This document shows positions 43,868 through 58,111 of a stretch of 64,000 nt of DNA, piece by piece. The stretch is from assembly GCF_002975405.1 (NCBI RefSeq), contig NZ_PCPS01000006.1, positions 62,001 to 126,000 on the forward strand, given 5' to 3'. The notes below the pieces were generated by a model. The model made no database searches, had not been told where the DNA came from, and saw only the letters and a list, made by a program, of their open reading frames with translations. Numbering within the stretch: position 1 is the first letter of the stretch; each line of letters starts with the position of its first letter. Position numbers and translations under genes: made by a program. Source of the DNA: Arthrobacter sp. MYb229 (GTDB taxonomy: Bacteria; Actinomycetota; Actinomycetes; Actinomycetales; Micrococcaceae).

Positions 43868-43896
43868 TTGTGACCGCAGTCACCGCAACCTGTAAT
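43868..43896 (+). promoter_or_regulatory. Second candidate promoter before the ycsG-like gene
   Basis: TTGTGA (43868-43873), 17 bases, TGTAAT (43891-43896). The start point would be about 43903, a few bases before the ATG at 43907. It lies downstream of the GntR operators. Confidence 0.4.
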
Positions 43897-43906
43897 GGAT
43901 GGAACC

Positions 43907-45124
43907 ATGGCACATTCAGAGACTCAGCCGCAGCTCAGCAGTAGGGCACGGCGCACAGCCCTTATGGGCGCCATGTTCCTCATGGCAACAAGCGCAATCG
44001 GGCCGGGGTTCATCACCCAGACCTCGGAATTTACGGTCAAGCTAGGAGCGTCCTTCGCCTTCGCGATTGTCGTTTCGATCTTGGTAGACATCGCAGTTCA
44101 GCTGAACGTTTGGCGAGTTATCGGAGTCTCCGGATTGCGCGCCCAGGAATTGGGCAACAAGGTGCTTCCCGGCGTCGGCTGGTTCCTTGCGGCGCTGGTA
44201 TTTATCGGTGGCATGGTCTTCAACATTGGCAATATTGCCGGCACCGGTCTTGGCATGAACGCGATGATGGGCGTTGACCCAAAAATAGGTGGCGCAATTT
44301 CAGCGGCAATCGCCATTCTCATCTTCCTATCGAAGAAAGCCGGCATGGCACTGGACCGGATCGTGGTACTCCTCGGGGCGATCATGATCCTGTTGATGCT
44401 CTACGTTGCAATCATTGCTGCCCCGCCGGTTGGCGAAGCGCTGAAGAACACCGTGATGCCGGAAAACATAGATTTCTTGGTCATTACAACGCTGATCGGC
44501 GGCACCGTCGGTGGCTACATTACTTATGCCGGTGCGCACCGCATGATTGACTCCGGCACTTCGGGCGTCGAGCATGTCAAGGCCGTTAGCCGCATCTCGG
44601 TTGTCAGCATCATCGTCACAGGTGTCATGCGAGTATTGCTGTTCCTCGCCATCTTCGGCGTCGTTGCCGGTGGCGTGGCCTTGACCAGCGACAACAAGGC
44701 CGCCGAGGCCTTCGGCGCAGCAGCCGGAGATATTGGACTACGCACCTTCGGCGTCATCCTCTGGTCCGCCGCGTTGACTTCCGTCATCGGAGCCGCCTAC
44801 ACCTCGGTTTCCTTCGTCACCAAATCGGTGACCAAAGAACGCACACGAAATCTGATCACCGTGGCGTTCATCGCCGTATGCGCCGCAATCTACCTATTCC
44901 TGGGCCAAGCCCCACAGACCTTGCTGATCTTCGCCGGCGCCTTCAACGGATTGATCCTCCCCGTTGGCTTTGCGGTCCTGTTGTGGGTGGCTTGGCGCCG
45001 CCGAGACTTGCTGAACGATTACAAGTACCCGGCATGGCTGTTGATTATTGGCGCCTTGACTTGGCTCTTGACTATTTACCTCGGATGGATGTCGCTCACT
45101 GGCCTGTCAAAAATGTGGGCCTGA
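43907..45124 (+). CDS. NRAMP-fold transporter of the YcsG type
   Basis: 405 residues with about eleven helices. The NRAMP fold shows in FLMATSAIGPGFITQTSEFTVKLG for TM1 and TTLIGGTVGGYITYAGAHRMIDSG for TM6. The metal-binding DPGN of TM1 is replaced by GPGF and the MPH of TM6 by AHR, so it should not carry divalent metals. In Bacillus subtilis ycsG sits with ycsF, ycsI, kipI and kipA, as here, and probably imports 5-oxoproline or a related acid. Co-directional with the ycsI-like gene 28 bases downstream. The earlier ATG at 43895 is also possible. Confidence 0.85.
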   Translation: MAHSETQPQLSSRARRTALMGAMFLMATSAIGPGFITQTSEFTVKLGASFAFAIVVSILVDIAVQLNVWRVIGVSGLRAQELGNKVLPGVGWFLAALVFIGGMVFNIGNIAGTGLGMNAMMGVDPKIGGAISAAIAILIFLSKKAGMALDRIVVLLGAIMILLMLYVAIIAAPPVGEALKNTVMPENIDFLVITTLIGGTVGGYITYAGAHRMIDSGTSGVEHVKAVSRISVVSIIVTGVMRVLLFLAIFGVVAGGVALTSDNKAAEAFGAAAGDIGLRTFGVILWSAALTSVIGAAYTSVSFVTKSVTKERTRNLITVAFIAVCAAIYLFLGQAPQTLLIFAGAFNGLILPVGFAVLLWVAWRRRDLLNDYKYPAWLLIIGALTWLLTIYLGWMSLTGLSKMWA

Positions 45125-45152: not shown

Positions 45153-45959
45153 ATGATCCCGCTCGAACCACATCGCGACGAACGTGCCAGTATGGCCCCG
45201 TCAGCAGCCCGTAAACTCTTTCGGCAAGGACTGAGCGTACCCACCGCTGGGTATGCTGCCGGATATGCCCAAGCGAATCTGATCATCGTGCCACGCGAGC
45301 TGGCCTTTGAGGTACTACTCTTTGCCCAGCGCAACCCGAAGTCTTGCCCGATTCTAGGGGTACTGGAAGCGGGCCAGACGAGCAACGAATTACTGCCCGA
45401 TGGCGATATTCGCACCGATCTTCCGAAATACACGGTCTACCAAAACGGCCAGAAAATAGCCGAACCTACGGATCTGAGCGAGTATTGGCGAGATGATCTG
45501 GTGACTTTCATCGTGGGGTGTTCATTCACCTTCGAAGCGGCCCTGATTGAAAATGGCATAGGCGTTGCCCACATCGACCAAGGTGTGAACGTGCCTATGT
45601 ACAAGACGAACATTCGCAGCGCCTCGGCCGGGAGTATTTCCGGACCGATGGTCGTCTCCATGCGTCCAATACCGGCTTCTCAGGTAGCGGACGCCGTGCG
45701 TATCACTTCCCGCTACCCAGCGGTACACGGAGCCCCGGTTCATGTGGGCAATCCCGAAGAAATAGGCATCACGGATCTGGGCAAACCAGACTTCGGAGAT
45801 GCACTCACCATTCCGGACGGAACCATTCCAATTTTTTGGGCATGCGGCGTGACCCCACAAGCCGCTGTCATGGAATCCCGTCCTGTGCTGGCTATCGGAC
45901 ACGCCCCCGGGCATATGTTAATCACCGATGCCAGGGACTCGATGTATCAGGTGCCGTAA
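45153..45959 (+). CDS. YcsI-type hydro-lyase (DUF1445, D-glutamate cyclase-like)
   Basis: 268 residues. Characteristic are GYAAGYAQANLIIVPRELAFEVLLFAQRNPKSCPIL, FIVGCSFTFEAALIENGI, RSASAGSISGPMVVSMRPI, and ITDARDSMYQVP at the C-terminus. Members are annotated as putative hydro-lyases; the same domain is part of vertebrate D-glutamate cyclase, which makes 5-oxo-D-proline from D-glutamate. Its place beside a YcsG-type transporter and opposite pxpA fits 5-oxoproline or D-glutamate metabolism. AGGAG precedes the ATG. Confidence 0.85.
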   Translation: MIPLEPHRDERASMAPSAARKLFRQGLSVPTAGYAAGYAQANLIIVPRELAFEVLLFAQRNPKSCPILGVLEAGQTSNELLPDGDIRTDLPKYTVYQNGQKIAEPTDLSEYWRDDLVTFIVGCSFTFEAALIENGIGVAHIDQGVNVPMYKTNIRSASAGSISGPMVVSMRPIPASQVADAVRITSRYPAVHGAPVHVGNPEEIGITDLGKPDFGDALTIPDGTIPIFWACGVTPQAAVMESRPVLAIGHAPGHMLITDARDSMYQVP

Positions 45960-48433: not shown

Positions 48434-49120
48434 CTAGATCTTTTGAGATGACTCGTAATGGTCGAGAAGTTCGGCTTCCGCGGTATCCAGGTAGCCCAGT
48501 AGGGTTTGGGCTGCTTCGTTCCGTTGGCCGGAGGCCAGCAATGCAACAAGTGCAGCGTTTCGTTCCACATAGTGCGAATGGAAATCTGGGGCATCACTCA
48601 TCGAATGGAAGACCAAGCGCATTTTGGCGAGAATTCGGCCCATGAGTTCGAGCAAGTGAACGCTCCCGGTGGCTCGCACCACGGACTCATGAAAGCGTTG
48701 ATTGGCATCAGCCATGCCCGGAACGTCCTGCGCTTTGGCCGCGGCGCGCGCCTCGACGATCGCCTGGGCCAGTGCCGGGACATCCAAAGCGGGCCCCCAC
48801 GCAAGCGCTGCGGGTTCGATGGTGCGACGCACCGCGTAGATCTCACGGATGTCTGCGGCACCCGGGGACGACACGAACACTCCACGGTTTGGAATTCGCG
48901 TGATGATCAATTCACTGTCCAAGAGCGTGAACCCCTCGCGGAGGGTATTACGTGAGACTCCCAGCGCGTCGGCCAGCGCCTGCTCCGACAGCTTAGAGCC
49001 TGGCAACAGCCGCCCCTGGGCGATTTCTTGGCGCAACGTCGAGGCCACCCAGGTGCTGGTATGCGCATGGGTGGATCCGCTGCCCAGTGGAATCGAAGTG
49101 TAGATCTCGTTCACGCTCAT
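48434..49120 (-). CDS. GntR-family regulator, FadR subfamily (FCD domain)
   Basis: 228 residues. The winged helix is LRQEIAQGRLLPGSKLSEQALADALGVSRNTLREGFTLLDSELIITRIPNRGVFV; the all-helical FCD ligand domain follows with REIYAVRRTIEPAAL, ANQRFHESVVRATGS (metal/ligand His) and YVERNAALVALL. It is encoded 40 bases after the carboxylase gene, in the same operon it presumably controls. Three TTGTNNNACAA palindromes in the window, before ycsG-like and pxpA, are its likely operators. The inducer may be 5-oxoproline or a product. Confidence 0.88.
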   Translation of the reverse strand: MSVNEIYTSIPLGSGSTHAHTSTWVASTLRQEIAQGRLLPGSKLSEQALADALGVSRNTLREGFTLLDSELIITRIPNRGVFVSSPGAADIREIYAVRRTIEPAALAWGPALDVPALAQAIVEARAAAKAQDVPGMADANQRFHESVVRATGSVHLLELMGRILAKMRLVFHSMSDAPDFHSHYVERNAALVALLASGQRNEAAQTLLGYLDTAEAELLDHYESSQKI

Positions 49121-49160: not shown

Positions 49161-50897
49161 CTAAGCGATGCTTCCCAATGACTCACCACGATTAATTGCC
49201 TGTCCCGGGTTAAACGATGCCGCGGTGAAGACTCCATCGCGATGCGCGATGACCGGTGATTCCATTTTCATTGCTTCCAAGACTGCCACCGTCTGGCCTT
49301 TGGCCACCGGGGTTCCGTCCTCGACCGAGAAAGAGACCAGATTTCCGGACATGGGGGACAGCAGTGCGTCGGCGTCGACCACCGAAGCCTCGCCTCCGCC
49401 TGCCCCATCCGAGGCGGAACCACCGTGGCGGATGGCGTGCACCAGCGCGGCAGGCAGGCCCAACGCCATCGCCTTGCCGTCTAGATCGATGGTGAGCACT
49501 TCACGCTCACCGCCGACGGACGTGGTGGCGATTTCCTCGCTATTTGCCAGTTCCTCGGCGAAGTCCGATTCGATCCAAGTGGTGTAGACCTTAAAGCCTT
49601 GCTCGGCGGTGAAGTCTGGATGCTTGGCGACGGCCCGGTGGAAGGGCAAAACCGTGGGAACACCCTCGATGGTGAACTCCGCCAGAGCCACCTGGGCGCG
49701 GCGCAGAGCCTGCTCGCGAGTCGCACCATGCACGATCAGCTTAGCCATCAGCGAATCATATTGCCCGGGAATATTCGAGTTGCTGCGCACCCCGGCATCG
49801 ACACGAATTCCGGAGCCGGTAGGGACCTCGAACCGGGTCACGGTCCCCGGGCCGGGCAGGAAACCACGGGCCGGATCTTCGGCGTTGATGCGGAATTCGA
49901 AGGCATGGCCTACCGGCTGCGGATCTTCCTTCAAAGACAGTTCTTTGCCCTCGGCGATCCGGAACTGTTCGATGACCAGGTCCACTCCGGCAGTCTCCTC
50001 GCTAACGGGATGCTCAACCTGCAAACGGGTATTAACTTCCAGGAAGGAGATGAGTCCGTCCGGCGCAACCAGGTATTCGACGGTTCCTGCGCCTACGTAG
50101 CCTGCCTCCCGGCATATGGCCTTGGCCGACTCGTGGATCTTGGCACGCTGCTCATCCGAGAGGAATGGGGCTGGCGCTTCTTCGACGAGTTTCTGGTGAC
50201 GGCGCTGCAACGAGCAATCGCGAGTACCCACCACGATGACATTGCCGTGCGTATCGGCGAGAACCTGTGCCTCGACGTGGCGCGGCTTGTCCAGGAATCG
50301 CTCCACAAAGCACTCGCCGCGGCCGAAGGCGACGGTGGCTTCACGGACCGCCGATTCGAAGGCATCCTCGATTTCTTCCATGGTGCGCGCAACCTTCAAC
50401 CCGCGTCCGCCGCCTCCGAACGCCGCCTTGATGGCTACCGGCACGCCATGCTTCTCGGCGAAGGCGCGCACCTCGGATGCGTCGGCCGCTGGTGCATCGG
50501 TACCGGGCACCAGCGGGGCACCGGCGCGTACCGCAATTTCGCGCGCCGTCACCTTATTGCCCAATAGCTCAATAGCTTCAGGGGTTGGGCCGATCCAGAT
50601 CAGCCCGGCCTCGATGACTGCGCGGGCAAAGCCGGCGTTCTCCGAAAGGAACCCATAGCCCGGGTGGACCGCGTCGGCCCCGGAGCGGTTGGCAACGGCG
50701 ATGATCTTGGAAATATCCAGATAGGTTTCGGCACTCGAAGTCCCACCCAGCGCGTAGGCTTCATCGGCCCGGCGCACATGCAGGGCATCCGCATCGGGAT
50801 CGGAATAGACGGCAACCGATACCAAATTGGCGTCGGCTGCGGCGCGGGCAATACGAACAGCGATTTCGCCGCGGTTGGCGATCAAGACCTTTTTCAT
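49161..50897 (-). CDS. Biotin carboxylase-BCCP fusion (AccC-type)
   Basis: 578 residues. The N-terminal biotin carboxylase domain has [19 protein letters not shown], the ATP-grasp Gly-rich loop [38 protein letters not shown] and [14 protein letters not shown]. The BCCP end has the biotinyl-Lys in EAMKMES. The layout is that of acyl-CoA carboxylase alpha chains, but the operon holds KipI/KipA (PxpBC-like) proteins instead of a carboxyltransferase beta chain. KipA is homologous to the carboxyltransferase part of urea carboxylase, so BC, BCCP and KipIA could together form one biotin enzyme. Overlaps the fused pxpBC gene by 4 bases. Confidence 0.92.
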
Positions 50898-52504
50898 GCC
50901 TGGGATCCTTCGGTGCTTGGGGTGGATTCGGAAAGTTCAAAACGAAGCTGTGAGCCTGGCGGCAACTGTGCCGCGGCGGATAGATCCTCGGCGATGACCG
51001 TGGCGATCACCGGGTAGCCGCCGGTGACCGGGTGATCGGCCAGGAACAGCACTGGCAATCCCGAGGGAGGTACCTGCAAGGAGCCGAGCGCGACGCCTTC
51101 GCTGGAAAGCTCGCCGGACCGAACGCGTTCAAGCGCGCTGGCGTCCCCTTCCGCGCCCAGCCGCACGCCGATGCGGTTGGACTCGCTGGTGACCAGCCAG
51201 CGCTGGTCCAGTAGTTTCGCCAGTCCGGCGGGGCCGAACCAGTCATCGCGCGGGCCAGCCTGGACGCGCAGAACATAGCAGCCCTCGGCATCTGGCCGGG
51301 GCAGGGTGCTCGGTTCGCCCTGTCCCACGATTTGCAGGTTCTCCGGCAGCGATACCGGCAGGAAGCTTCCATCCATCAGTGGAGCCGGACCCACCCCGGA
51401 GAGCGTGTCGGTGGACAGCGAACCCAGAATTCGGGGCAGCTGGATCTTGCCTCGAATCGAAAGGTAGCTGCGCAATCCGTTCCCGGTGGGCTCCAGATCC
51501 AGGCGCTCGCCGTCCAGCAGGGCGAAGGGCGCGTCCATGCAAACCTCGCGTTCGGCACGGAGGTCGTCGCCGGCCGCCGGAGTGATGACCAGCCTCGCTT
51601 CGGCTCCGCACACCGCAAGGACCTGGTCGCCGTGGGCGAGCAGGCTCATCCGACCGGTCAGGTTTTCGATGCAGGCAGAATCGGCCGTATTTCCAACCAG
51701 CCGATTTGCCTGATGCAAGGAGGCGAGATCGGCGGCGCCGCTGGCCGGTACGCCGAGCCCGCCAAAGCCCTGCCGGCCGGTGTCCTGGAGCAGGCTCTGC
51801 AAACCCGAATCGAGAATGGCCAATCCGGTACCCGTTGGAGCTTCGGTTTCGGTAGCGGCCGAGGCCGCCGTTTTCACGGTCAGCGCTTGGCGTGAGGCAA
51901 TAAACTGCACACGGTCCTGCGGGCGGATGAGCGCCGGATTTTCTCGACCCAGATCCCACAGCGCGACATTGGTATGGCCGATCAGTTGCCATCCGCCGGG
52001 GGACTGGCGTGGGTAAACGGCCGAGTACTCACCGGCGAGGGCCACGGAACCGGTGGGCACCTGGGTACGGGGGCTCTCGCGGCGGGGAACCTGCAGGTCG
52101 GTGTTTTCTCCCAGAAGATAGGCGAAACCGGGCGCGAATCCGCCGAACGTCGCACGCCACTGCTGGCCGGTATGCGCGTTGATAACTCCCTGGGCCCCAA
52201 GGCCGGTGAGCTCCCCGACGGTTTCCAGATCCGCACCGTCGTAATAGACCTCGATGGTGACAAGTTTGCCCGTAGTTGCCGCTGCCGTGTTCAATGTCAG
52301 CTTGGGCAACAGCTGCCTGGCCTGCCGGGCCTGTTCGACGTTTTCGAATTTCACCATGAGCGTCGCGGCGGCAGCTAGGACGTCGCGTTGCCCAGGCAAC
52401 GGTTGGGCCTGCAACAGGGCGTCGAGGGAAAGGACGGATTCGAGATCATCCAATTCGACGAGCACATCGTGGCTTCCGGCGGCGTGTACCGCGGTGATGC
52501 TCAT
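50894..52504 (-). CDS. Fused PxpB-PxpC (KipI-KipA, allophanate hydrolase subunits 1 and 2)
   Basis: 536 residues. Residues 1 to about 210 are KipI/AHS1: [51 protein letters not shown]. From about 225 the KipA/AHS2 part starts with [45 protein letters not shown] and ends near [20 protein letters not shown]. In other bacteria PxpB and PxpC are separate and together with PxpA make ATP-dependent 5-oxoprolinase. The fusion overlaps pxpA and the biotin carboxylase gene by four bases each (ATGA), indicating tight coupling. Confidence 0.9.
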
Positions 52505-53259
52505 GCGAAGCTCTTGATCTGCACGCCGGCCGATTCAAGTCCGGCGCGAACCGCGGCCGCCATCGCGACCGATCCTGCGGTATCGCCGTGCACGCAGATC
52601 GACTCGGCTGGCATCTGGATAATCGAACCGTCCACCGCCTTGATGGTCCCCTCGGTGGCCAGGCGGATCATGTTTTCGGTGACCAGCACGGAGTCGTGGA
52701 GCACGGCGTTCGCCTCGCGGCGCGAGACCAGGGTGCCCTCGGGGGTGTAATTGCGGTCGGCAAAGGCTTCGGCGACCGGACGCAGCCCGGCGGCCTCGGC
52801 CTTGGCCAGTGCCACCGAACCGGGCAAGAGCAGCACCGGAAGATCGTCGCCGAACGCCTTAACGGCGTCGACGACGGCTTGAGCGTGGGCCTCATGGTGC
52901 ACGATGGTGTTGTAGAGGGCGCCGTGCGGCTTGACATACTTGATGCTGGATCCCGCAGCTCGGGCCAAGCTCTGCAGTGCGCCCAGCTGGTAGAGCACGT
53001 CATCGGCGAGTTCGGTAGCGGAGCAGTCGAGGAATCGACGTCCGAACCCGGCAAGATCGCGATAGCCGACATGTGCACCGATGGTGACGCCCGCAGAGAC
53101 TGCAGCGCGGCAGGTCTGCGCAATGCCGGTGGGGTCCCCTGCATGGAAGCCGCAAGCTACGTTGGCCGAGGAGACGGATCTGAAAATGGCCGCATCGTCG
53201 CCCATAACCCAATTGCCAAAAGATTCGCCTACGTCGGAATTCAGGTCGATGCATGTCAT
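52501..53259 (-). CDS. pxpA: 5-oxoprolinase subunit A (LamB/YcsF)
   Basis: 252 residues. [61 protein letters not shown] and the C-terminal [10 protein letters not shown] mark the YcsF family throughout. With PxpB and PxpC it converts 5-oxoproline to glutamate using ATP. It is the first gene of the operon pxpA - pxpBC - biotin carboxylase - gntR - HD. A perfect 17-base palindrome carrying the GntR motif is 52 bases upstream. Confidence 0.93.
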
Positions 53260-55682: not shown

Positions 55683-55822
55683 CCCGCTTTGAGTTATTGC
55701 GCATTAACTTAAATGTGACGAACTGCTCTACCGCCATTCATCCCGGCATTTCGGGGCTAAACGCTGTGCTGCCCGGGGAAATCTGGGCACCCAAAAGTGT
55801 GGTGCAGGCTAAAATCAGGTAA

Positions 55823-58111
<2,289 letters not shown>

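Follow-up and report, generated by a model that had tools for sequence, protein, structure and literature searches.

A biotin carboxylase in the 5-oxoprolinase operon of Arthrobacter sp. MYb229 and its probable part in a biotin-dependent lactam-opening enzyme

The B. subtilis genes ycsF-kipI-kipA and the E. coli genes ybgLJK encode the prokaryotic 5-oxoprolinase PxpABC, whose use of ATP is puzzling given that PxpB and PxpC belong to carboxyltransferase (CT) families. A locus of Arthrobacter sp. MYb229 brings this puzzle to a point: why does a complete chain of biotin carboxylase (BC) and biotin carboxyl carrier protein (BCCP) stand in a pxp operon? The locus lies in the window analysed here, 64,000 nucleotides of contig NZ_PCPS01000006.1 (positions 62,001 to 126,000), to which coordinates refer unless another locus is named. 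A BC-BCCP encoded in the operon, or on the same polypeptide as in some relatives, offers a concrete answer to the question of ATP use, and we consider it probable, though well short of certain, that the operon encodes a biotin-dependent 5-oxoprolinase dedicated to the use of 5-oxoproline for growth.

Architecture of the pxp operon

The operon is encoded on the minus strand and begins with pxpA (52501..53259), a LamB/YcsF-family hydrolase subunit of 252 aa and 26.0 kDa, which matches PF03746 (1e-96) and exceeds the cut-off of one PxpA subfamily (NF003814, 350.6 bits against 226). It is followed by a pxpBC fusion (50894..52504; 536 aa, 56.0 kDa), in which CT_C_D (PF02682, 6.6e-54) precedes CT_A_B (PF02626, 1.1e-73), and by a BC-BCCP chain (49161..50897; 578 aa, 60.9 kDa) that carries the Pfam domains Biotin_carb_N, CPSase_L_D2, Biotin_carb_C and Biotin_lipoyl in a single polypeptide, with the BC domains at residues 1-443 and the biotinyl domain, with its EAMKM motif, at residues 513-575. 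Both joints, pxpA/pxpBC and pxpBC/BC, are four-base ATGA overlaps, so that the arrangement proposed in the initial annotation, a BC-BCCP chain overlapping the PxpBC fusion by ATGA, is confirmed by the open reading frames, the joints, the Pfam domains and the biotinylation motif. A mis-joined or broken gene was considered as well and ruled out, as both joints are clean and the copies at locus L040 are 79% (PxpBC), 86% (BC) and 91% (PxpA) identical.

At an E-value of 0.001, the PxpBC fusion matches no Pfam family other than PF02682 and PF02626, and no ATP-binding family is among its matches. A search of the window's contig for the AccD-type family PF01039 gave no match, the four matches of the genome being located on other contigs. 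Because PxpBC lacks a match to an ATP-binding family and the contig lacks an AccD, the BC is the sole recognised ATP user of the operon. In the genome as a whole (3,998,291 bases in 23 contigs, completeness 100), PxpBC is a single match and the BC C-terminal domain has five; one of these five lies in a separate AccA3-like chain, 59% identical to the operon BC-BCCP, which makes the BC of the operon an additional copy. The BPL_LplA_LipB family, which spans biotin and lipoate ligases alike, has three matches in the genome.

With regard to known families, the PxpA, PxpB and PxpC domains (PF03746, PF02682 and PF02626) that together mark PxpABC are all present, while neither the PxpB score of the fusion (117.4 against 145.55) nor its score for the PxpC equivalog (150 against 500) reaches the curated NCBIfam cut-off. 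The four domains of urea carboxylase (BC, CT_A_B, CT_C_D and BCCP) are likewise all encoded, across two chains; the single chain in the order BC-CT_A_B-CT_C_D-BCCP is absent, and scores of 515.4 and 137.4 fall short of the TIGR02712 cut-off of 1303.85. All 12 checked BC residues are in place, and the EAMKM motif falls within the Biotin_lipoyl domain. A full urea carboxylase was rejected, as domain order and site residues differ; for the same reason we file the set outside urea carboxylase proper, and it is best read as a urea-carboxylase-like variant that has PxpA as its partner.

Recurrence and separate recruitments of the biotin carboxylase

A search with PxpBC found 582 relatives, of which the best 80 named loci were kept as an 80-locus set, and a BC within 5.5 kb was scored as linked. 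Among these best 80 of 582 the closest relatives belong to the Micrococcaceae (Arthrobacter, Glutamicibacter); a BC is present in the fetched stretch at 58 of the 80 loci and within 5.5 kb at 57, that of L096 being more distant. Two Arthrobacter-like loci, L061 (in a metagenome record labelled Ramlibacter) and L079 (in a record labelled Vibrio cholerae 35D), probably represent mis-binned or contaminating contigs. Two broader samples were drawn by phylum: 200 Pseudomonadota genomes, 66 of them with a CT_A_B match, gave 59 places selected as non-urea-carboxylase by open-frame length, and 296 Actinomycetota genomes, 70 with such a match, gave 40 places selected by hand. BC is linked at 16 of the 59 Pseudomonadota places (15 of the 16 also having PxpA) and at 6 of the 40 Actinomycetota places (5 of the 6 with PxpA); the latter is an undercount, as a BC domain lies 1.7-2.7 kb from PxpC in at least nine further genomes (G027, G053, G054, G065, G142, G152, G227, G248 and G271). 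With BC genes numbering about five in 4 Mb, we estimate chance linkage at 1.6%; on that estimate the binomial probabilities are 1e-15 and 4e-5, respectively, both overstated because relatives are not independent.

The arrangement is also found on plasmids. Among 14 plasmid loci, hand-chosen among 40 of 734 records, three are urea carboxylases and eight of the other 11 have a BC. Plasmids of Klebsiella, Pararhizobium and Bartonella carry GntR, NRAMP, pxpA, D-glutamate cyclase, pxpBC and BC-BCCP genes as one cluster, and at three plasmid loci (L120, L121 and L127) the NRAMP gene immediately adjoins pxpA. Variants of the type accB-accC-CT-pxpA occur in Bradyrhizobium, Microvirga and Rhizobium, a haloarchaeal plasmid encodes accB, CT genes, accC and pxpA, and a Salinivibrio plasmid and a chromosome-size Klebsiella record have pxp genes without a BC. 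Because the gene set recurs at many loci in several phyla, a chance arrangement is excluded, and the arrangement is widespread beyond the window's own lineage. Presence of a BC anywhere in the genome is, by comparison, uninformative, since 13 of 14 control genomes own one, as do 79 of 80 PxpC-bearing genomes (80 of about 136). The one without, the 94% complete draft G103, has a CT gene of urea-carboxylase order and no match to BC or PxpA anywhere in the draft.

Some loci met in these samples stand apart. At two Actinomycetota loci, L231 and L236 (the latter from G103), CT_A_B and CT_C_D are fused in urea-carboxylase order with no PxpA or BC nearby, and on a Halomonas plasmid (L129:5989-6960) a lone PxpC-type CT gene is located by a permease gene, hydantoinase/oxoprolinase A and B genes and a transposase gene. 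Rhizobial accB-accC-pxpBC operons encode a second BCCP-like protein, a pseudo-BCCP, in which QIGPLLLP, QVGPILLP or VGVGHILLP replaces the MK biotin site (L122:7529-7954, L130:7388-7804 and L123:5261-5698).

Phylogenies suggest that the association arose repeatedly. A FastTree phylogeny built from 192 PxpC domains requires 14 changes of the BC label, and branches with support of at least 95 force six or more of them. A tree of the BCs places all 70 fused-type (AccA3-type) chains with the AccA3-like chain of the window's genome, and 17 of 18 separate accC (AccC-type) chains fall outside this group; with the two types so divided, BCs of two or more kinds have been recruited to PxpBC. The association goes as far as gene fusion in the genus g218, which we judge from L048 (Z. 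salsuginis, with a fused locus) to be Zhihengliuella: in four of its five listed genomes, PxpB, PxpC, a linker, BC and BCCP form one open frame of 1,147-1,166 aa, counted from PxpB, with differing linkers. Since all 20 urea carboxylases fetched have the other order, BC-CT_A_B-CT_C_D-BCCP, this fusion arose independently.

The recruited carboxylases are, with few exceptions, intact. The 12 scored BC positions, which we take to be catalytic in the E. coli BC, are all retained in 83 of 88 operon BC rows, and in 90 of 95 once urea carboxylases and the paralogues from the window's genome are added. A BCCP with the MK site is present at 82 of 87 BC-linked loci, and the five loci that lack it are the same five that are exceptions in the BC residues: L090 and L146 are cut by contig ends, L084 is on a metagenome contig that ends near the gene end and has one residue changed, and L110 and L118 are degenerate.

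Carboxyltransferase site, gene neighbours and substrate

Residues of the CT site bear on the substrate. Eight residues, G243, R244, D259, E280, R444, G495, G496 and Q513, are common to urea carboxylase and nearly all PxpBC rows, and D241 and R448 to urea carboxylase and most PxpBC rows. The two differ at positions 141, 142, 149, 465, 468 and 471, which are R, R, V, E, S and V in the window's protein and K, Y, T, N, D and Y in urea carboxylase (23 of 23 rows each); at these six positions the urea-carboxylase letter is absent from all 66 fused-BC rows. R419, W422, E465, S468, H491, P492 and T494 are invariant in all 66 fused-BC rows, and are present in 52, 47, 45, 47, 50, 54 and 53, respectively, of the 56 BC-less actinobacterial rows. 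As the BC-less actinobacterial rows thus mostly share the seven residues, loci with and without a BC differ little in the site.

The gene neighbourhood points in the same direction. A GntR/FCD-family regulator gene (48434..49120, minus strand; PF00392 and PF07729) starts 40 bases past the BC stop on the same strand, and a few kb from the operon the plus strand encodes an NRAMP-family transporter (43895..45124; PF01566, 1e-23) and a D-glutamate cyclase family protein of the PRK05463 type (45153..45959; PF07286, 4.9e-65; NF003969, 403.3 bits with a cut-off of 324). Passages of a study of C. glutamicum (PMC13274462) report that growth on 5-oxoproline needs an NRAMP-like pxpT together with pxpABC and that the GntR regulator PxpR binds 5-oxoproline; by sequence family the window's transporter is likely the counterpart of PxpT/YcsG, for 5-oxoproline uptake. 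In the 80-locus set, such genes accompany the 57 BC-linked loci more often than the 23 unlinked ones (NRAMP 31 versus 2, GntR 47 versus 3, D-glutamate cyclase 23 versus 1), and the Pseudomonadota sample shows the same for NRAMP (4/16 versus 1/43) and GntR (4/16 versus 0/43). Because the CT site resembles that of BC-less actinobacterial PxpBC, and PxpT-like, GntR and D-glutamate cyclase genes are often nearby, we favour 5-oxoproline, rather than a new compound, as the likely substrate, and the operon BC may have the sole task of supplying a high-flux, catabolic version of the same enzyme. The initial annotation had expected a new substrate and reaction; site residues and neighbours speak instead for ordinary 5-oxoproline.

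The foremost alternative is a functional biotin carboxylase made up of BC-BCCP and PxpBC that acts on another amide or lactam, such as a ureide, a hydantoin or some other lactam. In its favour, the CT site of the window's fusion is unlike that of most BC-less Pseudomonadota rows (n=46) at four positions, where R419 gives way to Q in 30 rows, H491 to R in 27 and P492 to Q in 39, and W422 differs as well, and its PxpC equivalog score is far below the cut-off. Substrates also seem to vary within the wider group, as urea-carboxylase-type residues (K, Y, T, N, D and Y) are present in 10 of the 18 separate-BC rows. These form an accB/accC clade (L125, L126, L143, L144, L146, L149, L152, L223, L225 and L226) with PxpA nearby at nine of the ten loci, and part of a Pectobacterium table (PMC10991766) gives neighbouring tags for an allantoin permease, a CT, allophanate hydrolase subunit 1, a biotin carboxylase and an acetyl-CoA carboxylase. 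As the allantoin permease directly adjoins such genes there, this clade is perhaps an intermediate with a ureide-like substrate. Against another substrate for the window's enzyme stand the same site residues in most BC-less actinobacterial PxpBC and the NRAMP, GntR and D-glutamate cyclase neighbours, which indicate 5-oxoproline, and we regard this alternative as unlikely.

Elsewhere in the window, a 720-aa open frame at 55757-57919 (minus strand), antisense to a 740-aa open reading frame at 55889-58111, is likely a shadow open reading frame.

Proposed mechanism, points against it and comparison with known systems

In the mechanism that we propose, the BC would use ATP and bicarbonate to form carboxybiotin on the fused BCCP, which would swing to PxpBC, whose CT domains are of the urea-carboxylase type, for transfer of CO2 onto the lactam nitrogen of 5-oxoproline. 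Such N-carboxylation would render the ring carbonyl labile, PxpA would hydrolyse the ring, and the resulting N-carboxyglutamate would lose CO2 to give glutamate. The net reaction would be 5-oxoproline + ATP + 2 H2O -> glutamate + ADP + Pi; since this balance equals that of a kinase route, stoichiometry alone cannot expose the carboxylation. Relatives without an operon BC may borrow the BC/BCCP of a general acyl-CoA carboxylase in trans, which would reconcile the BC-less relatives and the wrecked BC genes described below with a biotin mechanism. The complex, the carboxyl transfer, the PxpA step and the borrowing are inferred, as is the substrate. In titles, beginnings of abstracts and passages of the literature that we searched, no proposal of PxpBC as a biotin enzyme was found. 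Passages of a study of Lactiplantibacillus pentosus (PMC12427679) list, among its specific genes, an extra BC/BCCP copy as well as pxpB and a 'biotin-dependent carboxyltransferase' pxpC, and treat them separately.

Sequence searches of the PDB led to entry 9yx5, in which an AccA3 chain and two chains named 'propionyl-CoA carboxylase beta' co-occur with PxpB and PxpC relatives, entered as 'allophanate hydrolase subunit 1 and 2'. The proteins are presumably from M. smegmatis, and the beta chains, to which the sister entry 9t97 gives the labels D4a and D5a, are probably AccD4/AccD5. The matches show co-occurrence of the chains in one solved entry rather than contacts between particular ones; the entry would hint at BC/BCCP borrowing in trans. 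No PxpA match was found in 9yx5 by the PDB sequence search. Its chain V has Q at the position of the window's E465, a feature shared by loci L208 and L209, which we take to be mycobacterial; both, and two sister loci as well, have no PxpA nearby, and PxpA is encoded elsewhere in three of their four genomes. Our literature search found no paper that names 9YX5, 9YX4, 9YX2, 9T97 or 9TDM.

Several observations weigh against a biotin-dependent 5-oxoprolinase. No BC lies within 5.5 kb at 43 of 59 Pseudomonadota loci (37 with PxpA) and at 34 of 40 Actinomycetota loci (26 with PxpA), and the Actinomycetota sample shows no link to NRAMP (0/6 BC-linked versus 0/34 unlinked; GntR 1/6 versus 6/34). According to passages of PMC13274462, pxpTABC, an operon with no BC, suffices for C. 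glutamicum to grow on 5-oxoproline, and PxpB and PxpC are by general consent the subunits that phosphorylate it; a passage of PMC8453981 cites an ATPase activity of co-purified PxpB/PxpC. The CT subunits of 9yx5 are of the type whose loci here lack PxpA nearby. Finally, the BC genes of Naasia (L110:8536-9954) and Frigoribacterium (L118:8659-10113) have lost catalytic residues and the biotin domain while PxpA and the PxpBC signature residues are retained, and that of G608 (L240:2427-3947), beside PxpA and PxpBC, is barely recognisable, with the biotin domain and catalytic residues lost. In G608, the first part of PxpB and one shared residue (N267) are altered too, and the genomes of L110 and L118 (G300 and G301) still encode a full-length AccA3-like chain.

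These points lend themselves to a second alternative, in which BC-BCCP is a non-catalytic scaffold or regulator, for example one that ties 5-oxoproline breakdown to carbon or nitrogen state, and PxpBC itself phosphorylates 5-oxoproline. The BC-less relatives, the loci with dead BCs that keep PxpA and PxpBC, the phosphorylation view of PMC13274462 and the ATPase activity cited in PMC8453981 would fit it, whereas the near-universal retention of the MK site and of the 12 BC residues is unexpected for a scaffold and PxpBC matches no ATP-binding family, so that we give this alternative, too, a small chance. That BC-BCCP serves as a surplus alpha subunit of an acyl-CoA carboxylase, sharing only a promoter with the pxp genes and partnering an AccD elsewhere, is least credible of all: its identity to the genome's AccA3-like chain, the grouping of fused operon BCs with that chain and the authors' interpretation of the extra BC/BCCP of Lactiplantibacillus pentosus (passages of PMC12427679) are in line with it, but in-frame fusion to PxpBC in four genomes, the separate joining of AccC-type BCs to PxpBC in other lineages and the absence of AccD from the window's contig are not.

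The dedicated biotin-dependent 5-oxoprolinase is thus our preferred reading. That BC-BCCP and PxpBC form one biotin enzyme that acts ahead of PxpA, as first proposed for this DNA, gains indirect support from the recurrence, the two or more recruitments, the four-genome fusion, the CT families and 9yx5; the BC-less relatives imply that the enzyme can at times dispense with a BC in its own operon. The accompanying premise that PxpA and PxpBC alone suffice is weakened in that the species of the deletion work consulted (C. glutamicum, and B. subtilis as cited there) themselves own a BC. A bolder version, in which every PxpABC 5-oxoprolinase is a biotin enzyme, PxpBC itself never uses ATP and is fed by its own or a borrowed BC, PxpA hydrolyses the N-carboxylated lactam, and transient N-carboxylation is a general strategy of lactam hydrolysis in common with urea amidolyase, is offered tentatively and may well be wrong. 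Reported subunit sizes are not used as evidence here: passages of PMC8453981 describe the P. putida 5-oxoprolinase as a component A hexamer of 64 + 51 kDa dimers and a component B of 82 kDa, to which BC-BCCP (60.9), PxpBC (56.0) and three PxpA (26.0 each) would be a rough fit, and a passage of PMC6061476 gives alternative sizes of 75 and 63 kDa, which fit the OplA/OplB type. If the proposed mechanism holds, carboxylation would be a general way of opening stable amide rings, the enzyme could be useful for hydrolysis of lactams such as the nylon monomer, and a gene set annotated today under many names would be explained.

Among known systems, PxpABC is the closest in its PxpA, PxpB and PxpC domains and, as in C. 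glutamicum, in the NRAMP-like transporter and GntR regulator nearby; the window differs in its fused PxpB-PxpC, its operon BC-BCCP and its PxpB and PxpC scores below the cut-offs. The entry 9yx5 likewise combines an AccA3-type BC-BCCP with PxpB and PxpC relatives, but includes AccD-type chains, has no PxpA match and has its CT subunits as two chains. The caprolactamase CapAB and the OplA/HyuA-type lactam hydrolases also open lactams at the expense of ATP, CapAB in a bicarbonate-dependent manner (PMC8453981), but passages of that paper report them as dissimilar to PxpABC and describe no biotin enzyme among them. Urea carboxylase is built from the same parts (BC, CT_A_B, CT_C_D and BCCP) and would share with the window's system an N-carboxylation that precedes hydrolysis; the window, however, has two chains, and its fused relatives have the order CT_C_D-CT_A_B-BC-BCCP. 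In urea amidolyase, which pairs urea carboxylase with allophanate hydrolase, the place of the hydrolase is the one that PxpA would take here.

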